A DNA stretch of 43,626 nt, from assembly GCA_029070965.1 (NCBI GenBank), contig JAIEBI010000050.1, positions 1-43,626 of the forward strand, written 5' to 3'. Below the pieces are notes generated by a model. It did no database searches, was not told where the DNA came from, and saw nothing but the letters and a program-made list of their open reading frames with translations. The position numbers were made by a program, and so were the translations under genes. Positions 4,949 to 31,791 of the stretch are shown piece after piece (position 1 is the first letter of the stretch; each line of letters begins with the position of its first letter). This DNA comes from Clostridiales bacterium (GTDB lineage: Bacteria > Bacillota > Clostridia > Christensenellales > Pumilibacteraceae).

Positions 4949-7900
4949 TTACGCCGCTAACGAAGCTTCGTATGCCGCTTGCCACGGGCGCGTCCACTGT
5001 ATGCCGCCCTCGCGGTTTATAACGGCTGTGATTTTTCCGGCTTTGTCGCGTGTAACATTTGCCAGTATAGTGTTTATCAGTGATTTTACGTCGCTATCCT
5101 TTCCTGTCGGGGTTCTATTGCTATACACGGTTGCAGTCGATCCGTCAATCGTGTACTTTGTGCCGTTTATCGTAGTAGAGGACAGTCCTGTCGATTCAAG
5201 CTCTTGGCGTTTGAATTCGGTAGCGATATTATTGGGCGAGGGCTGTTTGAGAGCCTTGTCGGTGTAGTAGACAGTAGGTGTGGAGACGTTGCGCAACGAA
5301 ACATCCATCGATACGTCTATCAGGCCTACCATCGACGTCGCCAGAGTGAGCCTTTGTATGTAGTTGTCCAAAATGTTTTTATCGCCGTCGTTTGCGCCTA
5401 TAAGCGACAGTGACACATCACTGAGTGCGGTGCTTCCGGCAAGCTCCGCAAGCCCTATGACGATGTCGTGACTGCCGTTGTTGTATTGATAGCTTTTGAA
5501 TATTTGTGCCAAAGTATTTTGGGTATTATTGTTCGTGTCTTCCTTTGTAACGTTGTCTATAATAGTTTGCTGAACGTCCATGTCCCCGATAGAGTTAACG
5601 CATCGAGATAGCGGTAACAAACGGAATACAAATTCGTTAAGGAATTTTTCTATATCGTTGCTCATCATGTAACCAAGCTCGGATACCGTAAATGCCGCCT
5701 GTACCTCCTCGGTTTTCCAGTATATGCCATTGATAAGGCTATTATAGCTTCTGGTTATGTTGTCTTTTTTGGTACCGTGTTGCCAATCACGACCGACAAT
5801 GTATATCACGTCGTCGTAGAAGAATAGCCTTGTTGTACATTCGGGAAGTACGATGCCGTTTAATATTGCTGTGGATAATACCGTCATTTTTGGAATTTGC
5901 AGCTCTATATCCGCCGCTGTCGAATAACGAGGAGATGCGTCCTTACCGTTATCGAGAATTTTTACCTTAGCGTCAATTTTGATTTTTACATTTTCAAGCT
6001 GCAGTTTGCCTATGTGTAGGTTCAGGCTTATGCCATCGTCGGTGTCCAATCCGCCGATTTCGAATTCCAGCATATTCGCGGTGTTCATTACGTCGAACAG
6101 CAAGTGCTTTATGTTGGCAAAGTCGGAGTAGGCGGTTTTGCTGTCGGTGGTGAATTCGGACGTAGGCACCGTTATATCAAGCTCTTGACCGGCGGTGAAC
6201 TGCATGTCGAACGTGTTAAGCTTGGCTTTGTTGACGTCGAGATTGTCCACGCCGATGCTGTTTATTTTGTCACCGCTGCTCGCTACCTCTACCGTAGCCC
6301 AGCCTTCCGTGCCGGTGGCTACCGCGTTGTCCACGTATGCCGACAGCGCCGAATTCGCGCTTTGGAAATACACGGCGTTTACTACCTTGCCGAACAGTGC
6401 GCCGTTTATTTGTCCGTCCTCGTTGTTTTGTTCGTCGTCTTCGCCGTCGTCCGTTTTGAATAGGGCAATAGCCGCTTTAATGTGAGATATAGTGCTGTCC
6501 AAAAGCGTCTTGATAGTGCTTTCGGTAACGGTTTCGCCCTCGACCGACTTTTCGTCGTTCATCATTTCGTAGATAAGTGCGTCGATGCTGCCGGCGTTTT
6601 GCATTCTGCTCCAAGCGGCTTTGGCGTCGCCGAGCGCAAGCTTGGCTTCGTCAACCGCCTTTATAAGATTGTTGAGCAGGTCTTTTATGCTGTCCAAGCC
6701 CGCTATCGCCATTGACTCGAACACCGTTTTGTCGATATCCAGTCGGTACTTGCCGAGCAGCGATTCCACAGTTGCGTCGTCAACGCTGAGTATGTCGAGC
6801 GCAGCCGCAACGATTTCCATTATGGAGTTGTAGTCGAGCGAAATCTTTTCGCCGTAGCCGTTTGCTTCCTCGTAATGTAGGTACGCCAGCCCGTCGGGGT
6901 ATTGCTCGGTGGGTGCAACGTACAGGTTGAGCTTGATGGGGAAGCCCAGCTTACTTGCCGTGCTTTGCGTAACGCCGTCGTCCGACTCCTTTATGTCGAG
7001 CTTGATATGCGCTTCGATAAATATCTTGGACGATTTGGTGTCTACGCCGTCTATTGTTTGCGTCGTCGTAACGTACTTGAATTTAAGCGCCTGATTGCCT
7101 TCTATATTGTTTACGTCGATATGCTGCTTGACAACCTTGTTGCCGGCTTCGTCGGTTACTATTGCAGGGCGGCCCGCTTCGTCTTGGACCTCGACGATTT
7201 CGCCGTTTTCGTCCACTGTTGTCAGGATTTTGAATATGTCGTAGTCAAACGCAAATGTGTCTACCGAGAACGCGATTTGCGACACCGTTGTAGTGTTGCC
7301 GTCCTCGTCCGTAGTTACTTGGTCGGGAACCTTGGCGGTAATAGTGTTGACAGCATTGATTACCGCGTTGACAAACTCCACGACAGGTGTGTAGTTCGCC
7401 GCGTCGGTCGGCGTTATTGCGCCGAGCGGGGAGTCGGAGAATATAAGCTTGGCGGTAAGATTGAGGTTGAGCAGGTTGGACGCCGCTACGCCCAGCTTGA
7501 AATCGACCTTGCCGTCGGATATTATCGGCGTTACGTCGAGCGTGACGGTGAACGGCGAATCCATTACTATTACGCTTGCCGTAACGGCGTCGTTGAACTT
7601 GCCTATGCGGATCATATCCAAAGCCTGCACGATCATGCTCTTGCCGTACGCGTTGTCTTGGCTGAACATGATGCCGAGTATTTCCTCTGCGCCGTCAGCT
7701 GCCGCAATGTTCTTTATATCCTTGATAAGCGAGGATATGGACGACATCATTGATCCGATATCTTTAAGGCTGAGATATTCGGGTAAGTACTTAGCCATCG
7801 CGTCGTTTATGACCGCCATGTCGGTGGCGACGTTAAAGCTGAGTTTAATCTTGCCGATTTCTACGTATACAACGTTATTTTCGTATATCACGGTAACGGC

Positions 7901-10900
7901 AAGCGCGTCGTCGGTGCCGTAGAACAGCGTAAGCCGTACGCTGACGGCAATCGGGTCTAACGACAGGTCGATTACGCCGCTTATTGCCATTTCCTTGCCG
8001 CCGACGGTCAGCACAAAGTCGGAAACGTTTACCGTTATCGTCTTTGCTGTTTGGGCGCAATCTATCATATCCATAATCGGCGAGATGAACGGAATGAGCT
8101 CGCTTATTTCCATATAGACGCCGTCGGGGGCTACTGCACGTTTTTCGGCGGGCGTGACCGTCAAGTCAAGTCCGAAGCCTATGCCCATTATATCGGCGTT
8201 TGTGGTTTGTACACCGCAAAGCACGCCGTCAGCCGTTTGGACGTTAAGCGCAATCGCCATTTGCTTTCCGTCGATATTGCAATTCACGTTAATTGCGCTA
8301 AGAACGTTGTCCGCTATTACGATATCCGCATTGACGGTGGTTTTGCCGAACGTAGCGGCAAGCGCCATGCCGTTTTGAGTGGGGGACAGCGTTATGTTGT
8401 TAAGTATATCCGATATAGATATCTCTTTGTTCAACGAATTAAGTAACGACGTGACTTTGTCGTTAAGTCCGAGTTCGGGCAGCGCCCCGTCTATTTGCGC
8501 CAAAAGGTCTTTTATCGCGTTCTTGCTAAGCGGCTGGACAAGCCTTACTGAGCCGTTGTTGATATCGAGGTACAAGGTCTTGTTTACCACCGATACGGTG
8601 ACGGGTGCGCCCGCTACGTCGAGCCGCGCTTTTACGGCTACGGTGTCAAGTGTGTATTCGCCGAGGTCGATATAAACGTTGCCGGTAATCGTTTGACCGT
8701 ATACCGTTACGCTCACGCCGAGGTCGAACGCGTTTTGCTTAACGAGCGGCAGTATGCAGTCTATTGCCGTAAGTATGTCGCTTGCCTTAACGTATTCCGC
8801 GGTATTTACCGCAGGTACTGTTACATTGCTTGCGGTTATGCCTTTCAAGCTGAAATCGAACGCCATTTGATAGTGGTCGCCGAACGGTCCGCCAATGCCG
8901 TCAAAGGTGAGCGTTACGTCGCCGCTCATATAGGATAAGTCGGTAGCCATGCAAAGCGTAGCCGACAAGGCGCCGCGCGATATGCCGATATTAATTTGTT
9001 CACCGTCGATGGAAAGCGAAGTGAGCATTGCAAATATCGTGTCTATTGTTTTCGTTATATCCGTTTTGCCGTCGGTTGTCAGCTCGTCCTGCGACGGGAT
9101 GATACCCAGCATAATATCGGTCATCTTGACTATGTACGGGCGTATGGGATCGGGCAGATTGGGGATAACGGCGTCCATAATTTCGTTAATGTCCTTTAAC
9201 TGTCCGCTGACCTTTATGCCGCCGACCTCAATATACGCCGTATCGCCTAGCAGTATGACCGTAAGACCAAGCGAATCTTCCCTGACGATTGCTTTGAGCA
9301 TTCCGTCTTCTATTGTGCAGTCAATAGCCGCGTTTAGCGTTACGTCGCCTATAACAACGTTGGCTACCGTATGTATGCCGCCCGCTTCAATCATTTGCGT
9401 AGCGGCGGACGCCAAAGCCGAAAGCGCGGAAATATCCATATATTCGTTCGCGTCGGTAGGCGCGGTTATGGCGTGGCTCTTTTGGGCGGCGGTAATATTG
9501 ATATTAAGCTCGACGTTTACGCCGTTTATTGTGGCGGCAACAGCGATATTGCCCAATTTAAGATTAATGGCAACAGCTATATCGTAGCCCTCTACGTTAA
9601 GCGCAACGTTAAGTGTGCCGTCCGTCATTGTCAAGGACTTGATTGCACCGCTCATAGCTTCGGTCAAGTTTATTTCGGGCATTTCGTAATCGCCTGCAAT
9701 CAGCCCAACAAGCTGCATTATCGAGGATATAAATGAATTATCCGCCGTATCGAGCTTGGCTTTTATGTCGTTTATGCCGACGTATGCCGTGCCGTCTACG
9801 TACGTTACGGTTATATCCTGACCGAGCGCGCTAAGTCCGCCCGTTGCCGCTATGCCGACGGTGTTCTTGTCATTGTCGGTAAGTTTGTCTAATGCAAAGC
9901 TGCCGCTTATATCGTTACGTGTTCCGTCAATCTCAGCATAACCGTCTATTTCGGCGGTGTAGTAATCCGCGTCGAGGTAGGGTTTAGCTTGCTTGATCAG
10001 CGTGGCAAGGTCGGCAAAGGTGAGTGCGTCGTTTGTTTCGGGTGCTATCACTTCGCGCAACGCGGGCTCGCTTATATTAAGGTCGGCGGCTATATCGGCC
10101 TTTACGCCGAACAAATCGACGTTTACGCCGAGCGCGAGCGAACTGAGCTTGCCGTCAGCGCGAGTGAGCGTTAAGTTAATAGGCATGCCTATAAAGTTAA
10201 GACCGAGGTCGAGCGAATTGTCGTTTACCGAAACGGTGTCCAGCATTTCCGCTATTTCGTTGACCGACGACGGCAACATCGCTTTGAACAGTTTTTCGTA
10301 CTTGTTAAATCCGGTAACGTCGAGCAGTGCGGTCAAAAGCTGAGGAAGCTCCTCGATAGTGCCGCGTACGGTCACGCCGAGCGCAGTCGCGTAAACAGTT
10401 CCGTCGACGTACGTGACGAGCACGTCAATGCCAGCGACGTTGAGCGTTGCTTCCGCTTTGACGCCTTCCGTTCTATCGACGTACGCGGAAAGCCCGACAG
10501 TCGTATCGTTAAGGGTGAGCGTACCGTCTATGCCGTAAGTTTTTTGCATTGCGGTGGCGGCAATGTCGGGAACAAAGTCGAGCAAGCCCGACAAATCCTT
10601 TGCGCCGTCCAAAGGCGGGAAGGCGGGAGAGGTTTTAAGCGGTTCGACGTTGATTTCTATTATGGTATCGCCGATAGTCACGTTGCCCGTTATGGAGTCG
10701 AGCGATTTATCCTCGCTGTTAATAAAGATAGACGCGACAACTTGAACGTTGTTAAGCGCGGGGATAATATCGGACAGGTCGAGCGAGAACGACATGGGAA
10801 TTTCGGTTATGCCGTCCTCCTCGGTCATTTCGCAGTCCTTGAATATGACGTCCAGCATGTCGCCGCCGAATATCTTGTTTGTGTCAAGCTCGCCAAAGCT

Positions 10901-12238
10901 CAAAAGTCCTTTGAGTAAGGGATCCTCGGTAAGCTTTTTGGCGTCCTCGGTGGAAACGTAGCCGTTTATGTCGTTGTTCTTAACGTAAACCTTGTCGCCC
11001 GCATACTTGACGTATAAGCCGTTGCCGAGCATAGCCTGTATTTCGAGCGTGTCGAGGTTGACCGAAAGGTTAAGGTCGTACGCCGACAAATCGCCCAAAA
11101 GCGGAATGCCGTTGACATTTATGTCCGCGGTAAGGTCGAGGTTTTTCTCGCCCGAAAGATAGTCGGCAAACGCCGCGGCAAGATAGTCGGACGCCGAAAG
11201 GGGACCGCTTTGATCGATTTCGGGCGGCTTGTAGTCGGGATGAGCTTTGGCTTGATCGACGTACGGCTGGAAAAAGTCCTTTTCGGGGATTTCGCCGTTT
11301 TCGTCGTCAATCATAGTGAACGTTTCAAGGTTGTCGCCGCTGCAACGCATTGCGCCGAGCACGGGAATCTCTATATCGTATTCTTCCAGCGTGCGCGTGG
11401 AAATGGGGTTCCACTGCGAATCGACGGTTACGGTAATCTTGACCGAGTAGAATTTGGGGTTTTGGTCGGCGCCGCCCAGTGTGCGCACCTCGTTGCGGTA
11501 GTACAGCGACGATTCGGTGGGGTCGAGGGTGAGCGTGAACACGTAGTTGCCGTCGGCATCGGGCACGAGACTTTCGGGAACGTCAAAGCTCACATCGGCA
11601 TCGTCGCTGCCGTTGCTGTTAAGCCGAGGCGCCGTGGACGCGTTTTCATCCTTGACTGACAGTATTGTGTTCTTGTTGATTATGTATTTGCTAAGCTGGT
11701 TGGGAACCGCGCCGTAGTTTCGGCTGTACTGCTCGTACGACATTTGCGAGGCCGTTTTGGAAAAAGTGACCTTTTTGCCGTCTACCTTGGCATCGCGGTA
11801 AATGATTACGCCGTTGTCGATATATTTTTGTTCGGCTAAGCTTTTAAGACTGGACGTGGAAATCGTTTCGGTAAAAACTATGTTTTGGTCGTATACCACG
11901 CGGGTGTTGGTAAGGTATTGAGTGTAGTTGCCTACGCCTATGTCAGCCGAAACCTTGCCGTCGGTGTAGCCCTTGAAATACTTGGCATGGTGGATTTTGT
12001 ACGCGGTGTATTGAAGATTGGACAACAAGTCGTAATCGGCAGGGGAGCCCGTGGTCGGCGGCTGCGATTCCATGACAATCGTTTCGCCCCACTTTGCCGC
12101 GAACCTGCGGTTGTCGGTGTGAAATACGTTGGTAAATCCGGCAACTATGCCCAAAATAAGAATGGTTGCTATTATGTAAATTATGACGTTACGCCGAGAA
12201 ATCAGCGAGGATCTTTTGGATAAGAGAGAATTTGACAT
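4949..12238 (-). CDS. Giant membrane-anchored protein of repeated beta-rich modules
   Basis: At 2,429 residues this is by far the longest gene here. A short basic N-terminus (ending SRRN) precedes one hydrophobic helix (about residues 18-37), giving a signal-anchor with the rest outside the cell. Residues about 350-1,550 contain roughly six modules spaced 180-230 residues apart. Each is marked by two beta strands around a turn such as TYVDGTVYATALGV, TYVDGTAYVGINDIK or LLGDTAYIEVGGIK, then an amphipathic helix such as IEELPQLLTALLD. Weaker copies occur near residues 1,778 and 2,137. The strand-turn-Y-strand-helix pattern recalls LolA/LppX/LprG lipoprotein-carrier folds; this is inference. There is no LPXTG signal. 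Promoter and GGAG site precede the ATG. Function is unknown; lipid handling or an envelope-spanning scaffold are guesses. Confidence 0.85.
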   Translation of the reverse strand: MSNSLLSKRSSLISRRNVIIYIIATILILGIVAGFTNVFHTDNRRFAAKWGETIVMESQPPTTGSPADYDLLSNLQYTAYKIHHAKYFKGYTDGKVSADIGVGNYTQYLTNTRVVYDQNIVFTETISTSSLKSLAEQKYIDNGVIIYRDAKVDGKKVTFSKTASQMSYEQYSRNYGAVPNQLSKYIINKNTILSVKDENASTAPRLNSNGSDDADVSFDVPESLVPDADGNYVFTLTLDPTESSLYYRNEVRTLGGADQNPKFYSVKITVTVDSQWNPISTRTLEEYDIEIPVLGAMRCSGDNLETFTMIDDENGEIPEKDFFQPYVDQAKAHPDYKPPEIDQSGPLSASDYLAAAFADYLSGEKNLDLTADINVNGIPLLGDLSAYDLNLSVNLDTLEIQAMLGNGLYVKYAGDKVYVKNNDINGYVSTEDAKKLTEDPLLKGLLSFGELDTNKIFGGDMLDVIFKDCEMTEEDGITEIPMSFSLDLSDIIPALNNVQVVASIFINSEDKSLDSITGNVTIGDTIIEINVEPLKTSPAFPPLDGAKDLSGLLDFVPDIAATAMQKTYGIDGTLTLNDTTVGLSAYVDRTEGVKAEATLNVAGIDVLVTYVDGTVYATALGVTVRGTIEELPQLLTALLDVTGFNKYEKLFKAMLPSSVNEIAEMLDTVSVNDNSLDLGLNFIGMPINLTLTRADGKLSSLALGVNVDLFGVKADIAADLNISEPALREVIAPETNDALTFADLATLIKQAKPYLDADYYTAEIDGYAEIDGTRNDISGSFALDKLTDNDKNTVGIAATGGLSALGQDITVTYVDGTAYVGINDIKAKLDTADNSFISSIMQLVGLIAGDYEMPEINLTEAMSGAIKSLTMTDGTLNVALNVEGYDIAVAINLKLGNIAVAATINGVNVELNINITAAQKSHAITAPTDANEYMDISALSALASAATQMIEAGGIHTVANVVIGDVTLNAAIDCTIEDGMLKAIVREDSLGLTVILLGDTAYIEVGGIKVSGQLKDINEIMDAVIPNLPDPIRPYIVKMTDIMLGIIPSQDELTTDGKTDITKTIDTIFAMLTSLSIDGEQINIGISRGALSATLCMATDLSYMSGDVTLTFDGIGGPFGDHYQMAFDFSLKGITASNVTVPAVNTAEYVKASDILTAIDCILPLVKQNAFDLGVSVTVYGQTITGNVYIDLGEYTLDTVAVKARLDVAGAPVTVSVVNKTLYLDINNGSVRLVQPLSKNAIKDLLAQIDGALPELGLNDKVTSLLNSLNKEISISDILNNITLSPTQNGMALAATFGKTTVNADIVIADNVLSAINVNCNIDGKQMAIALNVQTADGVLCGVQTTNADIMGIGFGLDLTVTPAEKRAVAPDGVYMEISELIPFISPIMDMIDCAQTAKTITVNVSDFVLTVGGKEMAISGVIDLSLDPIAVSVRLTLFYGTDDALAVTVIYENNVVYVEIGKIKLSFNVATDMAVINDAMAKYLPEYLSLKDIGSMMSSISSLIKDIKNIAAADGAEEILGIMFSQDNAYGKSMIVQALDMIRIGKFNDAVTASVIVMDSPFTVTLDVTPIISDGKVDFKLGVAASNLLNLNLTAKLIFSDSPLGAITPTDAANYTPVVEFVNAVINAVNTITAKVPDQVTTDEDGNTTTVSQIAFSVDTFAFDYDIFKILTTVDENGEIVEVQDEAGRPAIVTDEAGNKVVKQHIDVNNIEGNQALKFKYVTTTQTIDGVDTKSSKIFIEAHIKLDIKESDDGVTQSTASKLGFPIKLNLYVAPTEQYPDGLAYLHYEEANGYGEKISLDYNSIMEIVAAALDILSVDDATVESLLGKYRLDIDKTVFESMAIAGLDSIKDLLNNLIKAVDEAKLALGDAKAAWSRMQNAGSIDALIYEMMNDEKSVEGETVTESTIKTLLDSTISHIKAAIALFKTDDGEDDEQNNEDGQINGALFGKVVNAVYFQSANSALSAYVDNAVATGTEGWATVEVASSGDKINSIGVDNLDVNKAKLNTFDMQFTAGQELDITVPTSEFTTDSKTAYSDFANIKHLLFDVMNTANMLEFEIGGLDTDDGISLNLHIGKLQLENVKIKIDAKVKILDNGKDASPRYSTAADIELQIPKMTVLSTAILNGIVLPECTTRLFFYDDVIYIVGRDWQHGTKKDNITRSYNSLINGIYWKTEEVQAAFTVSELGYMMSNDIEKFLNEFVFRLLPLSRCVNSIGDMDVQQTIIDNVTKEDTNNNTQNTLAQIFKSYQYNNGSHDIVIGLAELAGSTALSDVSLSLIGANDGDKNILDNYIQRLTLATSMVGLIDVSMDVSLRNVSTPTVYYTDKALKQPSPNNIATEFKRQELESTGLSSTTINGTKYTIDGSTATVYSNRTPTGKDSDVKSLINTILANVTRDKAGKITAVINREGGIQWTRPWQAAYEASLAA

Positions 12239-12282: not shown

Positions 12283-12311
12283 ATTTTAACATTTTTACTT
12301 ATTTTTGTCAA
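12283..12311 (-). promoter_or_regulatory. Promoter of the giant gene
   Basis: Minus-strand -35 TTGACA, 17-base spacer, -10 TAAAAT, about 45 bases before the ATG at 12238, with CGGAGAC as ribosome binding site. Confidence 0.8.
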
Positions 12312-12455: not shown

Positions 12456-12566
12456 ATATACAATATACGGAACTTTTTGTCGAAATATGTCTATATGTTG
12501 TGTGTATGATACAATTGTGTAATGTCGGCGAAAATCAATCGTAAGTATCGACAAAATCCGCAAGCT

Positions 12567-12619
12567 AAAACGACACACACAAAGTGTATGTCGTTTTTTG
12601 TGGTAGCGGGGGCGGGGTT
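12567..12619. repeat. Direct-repeat copy of tRNA 3' end and terminator (copy 1)
   Basis: These 53 bases repeat 12779-12832 with a single-base length difference. On the minus strand they hold the last about 20 bases of the initiator tRNA (T-stem 3' half, acceptor 3' strand and CCA), then the CGACATACAC-GTGTGTGTCG terminator hairpin. The rest of the tRNA is absent, so this copy is a remnant, not a gene. Confidence 0.8.
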
Positions 12620-12778
12620 GCCCGCGGACTGCGCGAGCGGGCTTTGCGCAAGCGCAAGCGCCTAGCGAACATGCACCGTCAGGCTTATTGTTTGATAGGC
12701 TCGGTTATTCTTTTTATATCAAATAATAAACATTATTGTCTACGCGGTGCATTCTCACCGCCTAGTCCACCGCATAAA
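12620..12778. repeat. Hairpin-rich segment between duplicated tRNA ends
   Basis: The segment contains GCCCGC/GCGGGC (12620-12642), a GCGCAAGCGC-rich hairpin, and an outer pair ATGCACCG (12671-12678)/CGGTGCAT (12745-12752). That pair encloses TTATTGTTTGATA/TATCAAATAATAA (12685-12729). It encodes nothing credible and resembles the other nested-hairpin elements of the window. Confidence 0.6.
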
Positions 12779-12811
12779 AAAACGACACACACAAAAGTGT
12801 ATGTCGTTTTT
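12779..12811 (-). terminator. Terminator of the initiator tRNA gene
   Basis: On the minus strand, AACGACATACAC, a TTTT loop and GTGTGTGTCGTT followed by TTTTT lie directly after the tRNA CCA end. Confidence 0.85.
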
Positions 12812-12813
12812 TG

Positions 12814-12890
<77 letters not shown>

Positions 12891-13075: not shown

Positions 13076-14260
13076 ATGAATGACAATCTTAAAATATTTA
13101 CCGACAACGTCGAGCCGGAAGCGGTCAATCAAGTTTACAATTTGATTGCACAACCGCCGTTTAGCGGTTCGCAGGTGCGTATTATGCCCGACGTCCACGT
13201 GGGAATGAACTGCGTGGTCGGGTTTACCTCTACATATTCGGACAAGATAATACCCAACGTTTTGGGTAGCGATTTGGGTTGCGGTATGCTTACCGTATAC
13301 CTCGGCGACGGGGATATATCGCTCAAAGCGTTGGACGACTTTATCCGCGCCAAAATTCCGTGCGGCAGTAATTACCGCAAGGAGGTGAACGGCGAGGCGC
13401 ACGTTAAAAAGCTGGATTGCTTTTCCGATCTGCGCGACTTCGACAGGCTGTACGGCTCGCTCGGCACGCTGGGCGGCGGCAATCACTTTATCGAGGTGGA
13501 CAAGGACGACGACGGCGGGCTGTATTTGGTTATACACAGCGGCTCGCGTAACCTCGGTTTGCAGGTGGCTAAGATTTACCAAAAGCTTGCCGTGCACGAC
13601 TGCAAGTTTTGCGCCGACGAGGAAAAGGCGGCGGCGTCCGACAGGCTTAAAGCTTGCGGCAAGCAGGCGGAAATTCCCGCCGCGCTAACCGCTATTTCGG
13701 CTAAGTATGCGCACAAAACAAAAATTCCCAACGACTTTTGCTACCTCGACAACGATAACATGGCGGCGTATATTCACGACCTTAAACTGTGCCAAGAGTT
13801 TGCCGTTATGAACAGGCGCAAGATGGCGGACGATATTTTGAAGTTTTTACATATTTCGCGTGCGCAATCGTTCGAGACGGTGCATAACTTTATAGATACC
13901 GACAACATTATCCGCAAGGGCGCCATACCCGCGCACAAAGGTCAGCGCGTAATTATCCCTATGAATATGCGCGACGGCTGCCTTATCGCCGTAGGTAAGG
14001 GCAACCCCGACTGGAACAATTCCGCACCGCACGGCGCGGGAAGACTGCTCAAACGCAGTGAAGCCAAGGACTACTTTACCGTGGACGAGTTCAAGCAGCA
14101 AATGCAGGGCATATACACGACAACCGTCGGTATGTCAACGCTTGATGAATCGCCTATGGTATATAAGCCTATGGACGAAATCGTGCGGTTAATAGAACCT
14201 ACGGTGGAAATCGAAAAGATAGTAAAGCCCATTTACAACTTTAAGGCTGGTGAGCAGTAA
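13076..14260 (+). CDS. rtcB: RNA-splicing ligase RtcB
   Basis: The 394-aa protein has the RtcB metal and guanylylation signatures in order: MPDVHVG (about residue 37), GSDLGCG with the Mn2+-binding Cys69, GGGNHFIE with His137, HSGSRNLG with His154, and SAPHGAGR with His319 as the expected GMP-accepting histidine. It would join RNA 2',3'-cyclic phosphate (or 3'-phosphate) ends to 5'-OH ends with GTP in the cytosol. The length fits the short bacterial form. ATG at 13076 follows AAAAGGGG. It is divergent from the initiator tRNA gene. In bacteria RtcB is associated with repair of cleaved tRNA or rRNA; its substrate here is unknown. Confidence 0.95.
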   Translation: MNDNLKIFTDNVEPEAVNQVYNLIAQPPFSGSQVRIMPDVHVGMNCVVGFTSTYSDKIIPNVLGSDLGCGMLTVYLGDGDISLKALDDFIRAKIPCGSNYRKEVNGEAHVKKLDCFSDLRDFDRLYGSLGTLGGGNHFIEVDKDDDGGLYLVIHSGSRNLGLQVAKIYQKLAVHDCKFCADEEKAAASDRLKACGKQAEIPAALTAISAKYAHKTKIPNDFCYLDNDNMAAYIHDLKLCQEFAVMNRRKMADDILKFLHISRAQSFETVHNFIDTDNIIRKGAIPAHKGQRVIIPMNMRDGCLIAVGKGNPDWNNSAPHGAGRLLKRSEAKDYFTVDEFKQQMQGIYTTTVGMSTLDESPMVYKPMDEIVRLIEPTVEIEKIVKPIYNFKAGEQ

Positions 14261-16473: not shown

Positions 16474-16944
16474 ATGACGCTCAAAGAAAAGCGACTGCAA
16501 ATCGGTCTAACGCAAGACGAATGCGCGGCACTCTTGCAAATATCGCGGCGGACATACCAAAGCTACGAGAACGATAAAAGAAAGCAAAGCAGAGTTATGT
16601 ACGGGTATTTGCTTGATAAGCTGACCGAGCTGACGCGCATAGATGAGAATCGCGGCATTTTAAGCTTGGATAAAATATGCGAGGTTTGTGCGGGCATATT
16701 TAAGGAGTGGAATGTCGAGTACTGTTATTTATTCGGGTCGTATGCCATAGGGGAAGCGAAGCAGAACAGCGACATAGATTTGTTGGTGGCTACGCCGCTT
16801 ACCGGCATGGCGTTTTTCGAGCTTGCCGAAGCTTTGCGTGAGGGATTACAAAAAAAAGTTGACGTTTTGGGATTGGAGCAATTAAACAACAATTCCGAGC
16901 TTTTAGGTCAAATACTTAAACATGGAGTAAAAATATATGGGTGA
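16474..16944 (+). CDS. HTH-MNT fusion antitoxin (MntA-like nucleotidyltransferase)
   Basis: The 156-aa protein joins an XRE helix-turn-helix (residues 1-50, with GLTQDECAALLQISRRTYQSYE) to a minimal nucleotidyltransferase. The latter has the GSYAxGEA motif at residues 88-94 followed by SDIDLLV with Asp100 and Asp102. In known HepT/MntA systems the MNT protein neutralises the HEPN toxin by adding AMP groups to its tyrosine. Here the nucleotidyltransferase probably also represses its own promoter through the attached HTH. The gene overlaps the HEPN gene by 8 bases. Canonical MntA proteins lack the HTH, so this is a fusion variant. Confidence 0.85.
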   Translation: MTLKEKRLQIGLTQDECAALLQISRRTYQSYENDKRKQSRVMYGYLLDKLTELTRIDENRGILSLDKICEVCAGIFKEWNVEYCYLFGSYAIGEAKQNSDIDLLVATPLTGMAFFELAEALREGLQKKVDVLGLEQLNNNSELLGQILKHGVKIYG

Positions 16945-17272
16945 GTGCAAAAACGACAGTTACTATTTGTCCAAAATCGTTACCGATTTGGGGTTCTTGC
17001 TTGAACACACAAAGGGTTTGACAAAGGCGCAAATGCAAAAGGACGAGGTGCTTTTGGACTGTATTATGTTTAGACTTGTGCAAATTTCAGAAAATTCAGA
17101 TAGGCTGACGGACGAGTTTAAGGCGCGTTACAGCGACGTTTCATGGCGTGCGATAAAGGGCTTGCGCAATAGGATTGTTCACGATTACGGCACTGTAGAT
17201 ATATCGATAATATTCGATACGGTTGCGGGCGACATTCCTACATTGTACGATATCCTTGTCGGATTGGTCTAA
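16937..17272 (+). CDS. HEPN-domain toxin (HepT-like)
   Basis: The 111-aa all-helical protein has the HEPN RNase motif Rx4HxY as LRNRIVHDYG: Arg77, His82 and Tyr84. In the HepT family this motif cleaves RNA, and the tyrosine is the residue AMPylated by the partner MNT antitoxin. ATG at 16937 overlaps the antitoxin gene, giving tight coupling. The reading frame is complete with no damage. The RNA target cannot be read from sequence. A bidirectional terminator follows. Confidence 0.87.
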   Translation: MGECKNDSYYLSKIVTDLGFLLEHTKGLTKAQMQKDEVLLDCIMFRLVQISENSDRLTDEFKARYSDVSWRAIKGLRNRIVHDYGTVDISIIFDTVAGDIPTLYDILVGLV

Positions 17273-30894: not shown

Positions 30895-31791
30895 GTGTAT
30901 ATAACCACAAAGCAAGCCGCCGAAAAGTGGGGTATATCCGAGCGGCGAGTTCGCGTACTGTGTGCGGAAGGCAAAATACAAGGAGCCATGCAAGTGGGAC
31001 GCGGTTGGAATATCCCCGCCGACGCCGTTAAACCGTTTGACGGACGAGTTAAGAATACGTCTGTAATACTCGCGCAAATCGAAGCTAAAAAGACTGAGCT
31101 TAGCGCATTAAGACCGTTGTCGAAGGGCGAGCTTATTCGGTTGAACGACGAGTTCATGGTGGAGTACACTTACAACTCCAACGCCATAGAGGGCAATACG
31201 CTGACCTTGCGCGAAACAAGTCTTGTTTTGCAGGGTGTGACCGTAGATAAAAAGCCGTTAAACGATCATTTGGAAGCGATAGGGCATAAGGAAGCGTTTG
31301 AATTTGTTTGCGTGCTTGTCGAGGAAAACAAGCCGTTAACGGAGAGCGTGATTAAACAAATACATTCGCTTGTGTTGTCGGATAAGCCGCAGGACCGCGG
31401 CATATACCGTCGTATTCCCGTGCGTATTTTGGGCGCAAAGCATGAACCGCCGCAGCCGTTTTCCATTGCGCCGCTGATGGAAAAGCTGCTGTACGAGTAT
31501 AACGAAGATGCGACGAATATCATTACCAAGTTGGCTAAGTTCCATATCGAGTTTGAGGCAATCCACCCGTTTATCGACGGTAACGGTAGGACGGGACGGC
31601 TATTGGTTAATCTGGAATTGATGAAAGCCGGATATCCGCCCATCGATATAAAGTACACGGATAGATATAGATATTATGGCGCATTCGACAGTTATCACGG
31701 TAAAGGCGACTTGATGCCGATGCAAACGCTTTTTGCCGAATATATGCTTGAACGGCTCGATACTTATTTGCGTGTGTTAAAAGAGAATTGA
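30895..31791 (+). CDS. Fic-domain AMP-transferase with N-terminal HTH
   Basis: The 298-aa protein begins with an excisionase/MerR-like helix-turn-helix (residues 1-47, with TTKQAAEKWGISERRVRVLCAEGKI). A Fic N-terminal region follows with inhibitory motif SNAIEG (Ser95, Glu99, Gly100), then the complete catalytic motif HPFIDGNGRTGR (His224 to Arg235). It would attach AMP, or a related nucleotide, to hydroxyl groups of proteins, held in check by its own inhibitory helix. GTG at 30895 has AGGT close upstream. The HTH and the adjacent palindromes suggest autoregulation. The target protein is unknown. Confidence 0.9.
   Translation: MYITTKQAAEKWGISERRVRVLCAEGKIQGAMQVGRGWNIPADAVKPFDGRVKNTSVILAQIEAKKTELSALRPLSKGELIRLNDEFMVEYTYNSNAIEGNTLTLRETSLVLQGVTVDKKPLNDHLEAIGHKEAFEFVCVLVEENKPLTESVIKQIHSLVLSDKPQDRGIYRRIPVRILGAKHEPPQPFSIAPLMEKLLYEYNEDATNIITKLAKFHIEFEAIHPFIDGNGRTGRLLVNLELMKAGYPPIDIKYTDRYRYYGAFDSYHGKGDLMPMQTLFAEYMLERLDTYLRVLKEN

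Follow-up and report, generated by a model that had tools for sequence, protein, structure and literature searches.

A membrane-anchored array of predicted LolA-like β-clam modules in a Clostridia bacterium

Here we describe a 2,429-residue protein, encoded in a 43,626-nucleotide window (the whole stretch of DNA analysed), that is best explained as a tethered string of LolA-type pockets, each with its own lid, for hydrophobic ligands in a single-membrane Clostridia bacterium. This reading draws on predicted structural models, and we consider it about evenly balanced between right and wrong. The fold of the repeated unit stands much more firmly: going by the models, the modules almost certainly share the β-clam fold of LolA, LppX and LprG.

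Repeat architecture of the array protein

The gene corresponds exactly to the 4949–12238 open reading frame picked out by an earlier sequence-only reading (ATG start, 2,429 residues plus stop), to which we add its strand, minus. Its features are as follows.

4949..12238, minus strand: whole gene, 2,429 residues; single copy in the genome, no close co-directional neighbour
12283..12311, minus strand: TTGACA-17-TAAAAT, a match to a sigma-A type promoter, 73 bases upstream of the ATG; conserved in the genus
12131..12190, minus strand: N-terminal signal-anchor, residues 17–36 (RR then VIIYIIATILILGIVAGF); hydrophobic segment
11219..12091, minus strand: N-terminal domain, residues 50–340; most conserved part of the protein
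10607..11209, minus strand: module R1, residues 344–544; profile self-comparison
10028..10606, minus strand: module R2, residues 545–737; AlphaFold2 mean pLDDT 78, LolA-like
9452..10027, minus strand: module R3, residues 738–929; AlphaFold2 pLDDT mostly 70–84, LolA-like
8792..9451, minus strand: module R4, residues 930–1149; profile self-comparison
8099..8791, minus strand: module R5, residues 1150–1380; profile self-comparison
7385..8098, minus strand: module R6, residues 1381–1618; profile self-comparison
6074..6961, minus strand: possible degenerate module R7, residues 1760–2055; probability 35%, E 4e-4, weak and suggestive
5249..5926, minus strand: possible degenerate module R8, residues 2105–2330; 9 bits, E 0.015, weak
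4952..5134, minus strand: conserved C-terminal tail, residues 2369–2429; tryptophan-containing, closing with GGIQWTRPWQAAYEAS...

Profile self-comparison divides residues 344–1618 into six diverged tandem modules of ~190–240 residues each with a period of ~206, which bears out the modules of about 200 residues proposed earlier. We find the strand-turn-strand marks at residues 410, 609, 812, 995, 1216 and 1451, within 0–7 residues of the positions given in the earlier reading (403, 607, 811, 993, 1216 and 1449). Off-diagonal BLASTP window matches at E<=0.01 numbered 69, against 0, 0 and 0 in three shuffles, so the repeats go beyond chance. Modules 2–6 match one another with pairwise E values of ~1e-8 to 1e-17, and module 1 is weaker (E ~1e-3 to 1e-5). 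Where BLAST aligns them, the modules are only ~22–30% identical, which indicates that they are old. Each is very acidic (net charge −10 to −23). The further copies that had been suggested near residues 1778 and 2137 have only weak support (E ~4e-4 for residues 1760–2055; module-profile scores of 5–9 bits at 1867–2056 and 2170–2329, similarly placed in several orthologues).

Predicted fold of the modules

Sequence searches with the whole protein, 55 single modules and the module profile gave no match in Pfam, NCBIfam or the PDB. The profile search proposed by the earlier reading likewise returned no family of the LolA type from Pfam or NCBIfam in scans up to E 1. Weak Pfam matches such as HlyE each came from a single member of the 55 and were put down to chance.

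We modelled module 2 alone (residues 541–739, with 15 module rows) and a tandem pair (residues 735–1172, with other pairs as alignment rows) using AlphaFold2, from shallow alignments composed of the window and related loci only. Module 2 reached a mean pLDDT of 77.9 and a pTM of 0.66, and module 3 a pLDDT mostly of 70–84. Module 4 was modelled poorly, and the pair model therefore does not resolve how modules are oriented relative to each other. The module 2 model is an 11-stranded clam running α1, β1–6, three short lid helices and β7–11, and the module 3 model has the same strand order. LolA-fold proteins are β-clams with an apolar pocket in a curved sheet and a variable lid, which in LprG and LolB consists of three short helices (PMC6363788).

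Fold searches placed the very families named in the sequence-only reading at the top. Foldseek against the PDB returned LolA and RseB first for module 2 (probability 1.00) and again for module 3 (LolA E 2.9e-6), where LolB, LprG and LprF ranked high as well. With VIA-align, module 2 matched LppX (Z 11.4; r.m.s.d. 3.3 over 148 residues), LprF (10.8), LprG (10.7) and LolB (9.6), with RseB and MucB among its nearest folds (Z 8–9), and module 3 matched LolA-fold proteins with Z up to 9.9. Matches to solved LolA-fold members thus span ~140–160 residues, most of the domain, at Z 8–11.4; TM-scores to PDB entries are modest (0.4–0.5). The predicted models show these traits of the superfamily (CATH 2.50.20 β-clam): a strongly curved antiparallel sheet of ~11 strands, a helical lid and the structural match itself. 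In module 2 the strands alternate apolar and polar faces (the observed mean was not reached in any of 2000 within-strand shuffles), a pattern that packed β-sheet cores give likewise.

Immunoglobulin-like or adhesin modules, which had been named as the outcome that would speak against a LolA-like fold, did not appear; Ig-like folds are absent among the best fold matches listed. Sliding clamps were returned by Foldseek with low TM-score and probability and were rejected as generic β matches, and a viral fold library gave no convincing relative.

Anchor, flanking domains and cell envelope

The protein has a single strong hydrophobic segment, at about residues 17–36 and preceded by two arginines, and no second one. 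A hydrophobic segment is present in 39 of 39 homologous N-termini which, together with the varying number of modules, supports the earlier proposal of a module chain on one anchor. No lipobox, and hence no LppX/LprG-type lipoprotein signal peptide, was found in the array protein; plausible lipoboxes occur in the relatives L048, L049 (LSAGAAGC), L078 and L087.

Within the N-terminal domain, residues 229–309 match a stand-alone 272-residue paralogue (L002:1495-2313, G000:C29). This paralogue is a single-pass protein found in many genomes of the genus, and its gene adjoins a collagen-like gene with GPTG repeats. Profile comparison gave no link between the N-terminal domain and the modules (E ~0.5), and its interpretation as a further LolA module was dropped. 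Evolution has been quicker in the module region than in the N-terminal domain. No second copy of the C-terminal tail was found in the genome. In families f15 and f29, relatives append Listeria-Bacteroides repeats after the array.

The host genome (1.81 Mb, 71 contigs, 94.5% complete) contains Spo0A and gave no match to Omp85, for which seven control genomes were positive. We infer a Gram-positive type envelope, with the protein facing outward from the membrane. Sortase anchoring was rejected, as the genome gave no sortase match and controls were positive as expected.

Promoter and gene neighbourhood

The sigma-A type promoter match is conserved across the genus: each of the 18 sequences examined from the genus has, upstream of the gene, TTGACA, a spacing of 17 and a −10 hexamer matching at 5/6 or 6/6 positions, at 71–85 bases from the start in 16 and at 120–124 in the remaining two. 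On this sequence evidence, the array gene is probably transcribed on its own in vegetative cells. Its neighbours in most genus members are genes for an asparaginase, a NUDIX protein and a Myb-like protein; RtcB and others also lie nearby. Transporter and lipid genes are absent among these neighbours, which offer no functional link, and no anti-sigma gene was recognised beside the array gene within the window. In two other genera (L044:2051-4711 and L046:2307-5090), the gene directly upstream is divergent and encodes a P-type (E1-E2) ATPase, and in a sister species a subtilase with Listeria-Bacteroides repeats lies near the array gene (L033:3351-5858).

Elsewhere in the window, the 3' end of tRNA-Met (12814–12890) and the hairpin-like stretch of ~50 bases that follows it recur ~180 bases downstream (12565–12830, minus strand), much as if an integration or duplication at the tRNA had left a remnant behind. 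Beside RtcB (13076–14260), a stretch of low GC content carries an MNT-type nucleotidyltransferase and HepT-like pair of the toxin-antitoxin type (16474–17272), and a Fic/DOC-domain protein with a helix-turn-helix is encoded at 30895–31791.

Distribution and array growth

The survey of related genomes suggested by the earlier reading found the array throughout the genus (20 of 20 genomes) and in other families of the order. The module profile matches 41 of 74 family genomes at E<=1e-3 and 47 of 297 order genomes at E<=1e-6 (families f1, f13, f15, f20 and f29); at the sensitivity of this profile, a further 397 genomes sampled from the phylum gave no match. No copies were found on plasmids, phages or viral contigs.

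Within the genus, most arrays have six modules, with four in L042, five in L036 and L041, and eight in L037–L040. The L033 protein lacks residues 731–924, one clean module loss; over the rest of its length it is ~70% identical to the sister sequences. In other families, frames of ~3,250–3,440 residues hold 12–15 modules, and one of ~6,200 residues (L075) holds at least 18. Near-identical modules occur in several relatives: four in L078 are 92–96% identical, nine in L076 are 67–89% identical, and in L082 modules 7 and 11 (98%) and 8 and 12 (92%) pair up, hinting at an alternating two-module pattern. Together with L075, these arrays bear signs of recent whole-module amplification (identity up to 98%). 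Arrays thus grow by duplication of whole modules, which then diverge. The near-identical arrays come from draft genomes, in which assembly error is possible; the diverged arrays of the window's genus are free of that doubt.

Comparison with known systems

The closest structural relatives are LppX, LprG and LprF (Z 10.7–11.4), which share the module's fold and size (~200 residues, 11 strands, helical lid) and an N-terminal membrane tether on the outer face. They have one module, a lipid anchor and a mycobacterial envelope, whereas the array protein has six or more modules, a protein anchor and no Pfam match, in a single-membrane bacterium. LprG is encoded with an MFS transporter (PMC10576003); the array gene adjoins asparaginase, NUDIX, RtcB and other genes instead of such a partner.

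LolA and LolB share the predicted fold (Foldseek probability 1.00) but are single soluble or lipidated domains that serve the outer membrane via LolCDE. LolA's own role, lipoprotein delivery to the outer membrane with LolCDE and LolB, does not fit the host, as judged solely from the missing Omp85 match. RseB and MucB have a LolA-like domain and respond to hydrophobic signals; they differ in having just one such domain plus a C-terminal domain, in regulating a sigma factor and in forming no array. In the RBG bridge proteins (VPS13, ATG2, SHIP164, Hobbit and Tweek), the number of repeated β-units also sets length, and the idea of a hydrophobic groove is common to both. This likeness is one of description, not sequence, and their groove is open and continuous, whereas the array modules each appear lidded in the models.

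Discussion

The tethered chain of pockets that we favour would comprise a signal-anchor, a conserved N-terminal domain and then six (perhaps eight) β-clam modules on the wall side of the membrane. Judging from the fold, each module would form a pocket with a lid of its own that takes up a hydrophobic ligand (a lipid, a lipopeptide or another apolar molecule). Such a chain would set many pockets alongside or across the peptidoglycan and may capture ligands at the surface or pass them between membrane and surface, with module number setting reach or capacity. A first helix and a lid recur in every module modelled, which points to separate pockets rather than a continuous groove. Several observations weigh against the pocket chain: apolar inner strand faces are expected of any packed β-sheet core, neither a linked transporter or lipid gene nor a sequence-level link to any LolA-type family was found, TM-scores are modest and module 4 modelled poorly. 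More doubtful is a wall-spanning relay or store, in which anchored tandem LolA-type carriers would hand hydrophobic molecules from pocket to pocket through the peptidoglycan, duplication tuning module number to its thickness.

The strongest competing explanation is a surface stalk or adhesin shaft, whose LolA-like modules would be rigid spacer beads without bound ligand that carry the C-terminal region off the membrane or contact host or neighbours. We give it a real but minority likelihood. The number of modules ranges freely between 4 and at least 18, duplication copies entire modules that later diverge, and the module region outpaces the N-terminal domain in evolution, all as a shaft would have it; the strong acidity of the modules and the Listeria-Bacteroides repeats added in relatives, known from surface proteins, point the same way. 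Yet lid helices and apolar strand faces, as in a clam that binds ligands, are retained in the modelled modules, and common spacer repeats are usually small (~60–100 residues), whereas the unit here is complex and has ~200.

Sensing of the RseB/MucB type, with modules binding a lipid or misfolded ligand and signalling via a membrane partner, seems improbable. Its appeal lies in the structural nearness of RseB and MucB and in the finding that lipids antagonise MucA–MucB binding (PMC7400510); RseB, however, has one LolA-like domain rather than an array, and an anti-sigma gene was not recognised beside the array gene in the window. The continuous hydrophobic groove raised by the sequence-only reading fared worst. 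Half-barrels of consecutive modules would join into one groove along which lipids slide, in the manner of VPS13/ATG2 or TamB. A single chain does carry tandem LolA-type half-barrels, and rod-shaped hydrophobic grooves are an established route for moving lipids (PMC7613979). In the models, however, the first helix of each module and the helices between strands 6 and 7 appear to close the pockets off from one another, and the genome, with no Omp85 match, gives no sign of a second membrane to bridge to; we regard such a bridge as very unlikely.

The LolA-type fold itself is already known; for its multi-copy anchored arrangement, no description of tandem LolA-type arrays was found in the literature searched, with most subscription journals outside its coverage. 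LolA-type proteins are known as carriers that shuttle as single units, for the most part where a bacterium has an outer membrane to supply. Here, 4 to at least 18 LolA-type units are strung on one anchored chain, in a family restricted to one order, and the window's genome shows no marker of an outer membrane. A complex 200-residue fold has been amplified in the manner of a spacer repeat, and the array suggests an undescribed way of handling lipids or other hydrophobic molecules at a single-membrane cell surface.
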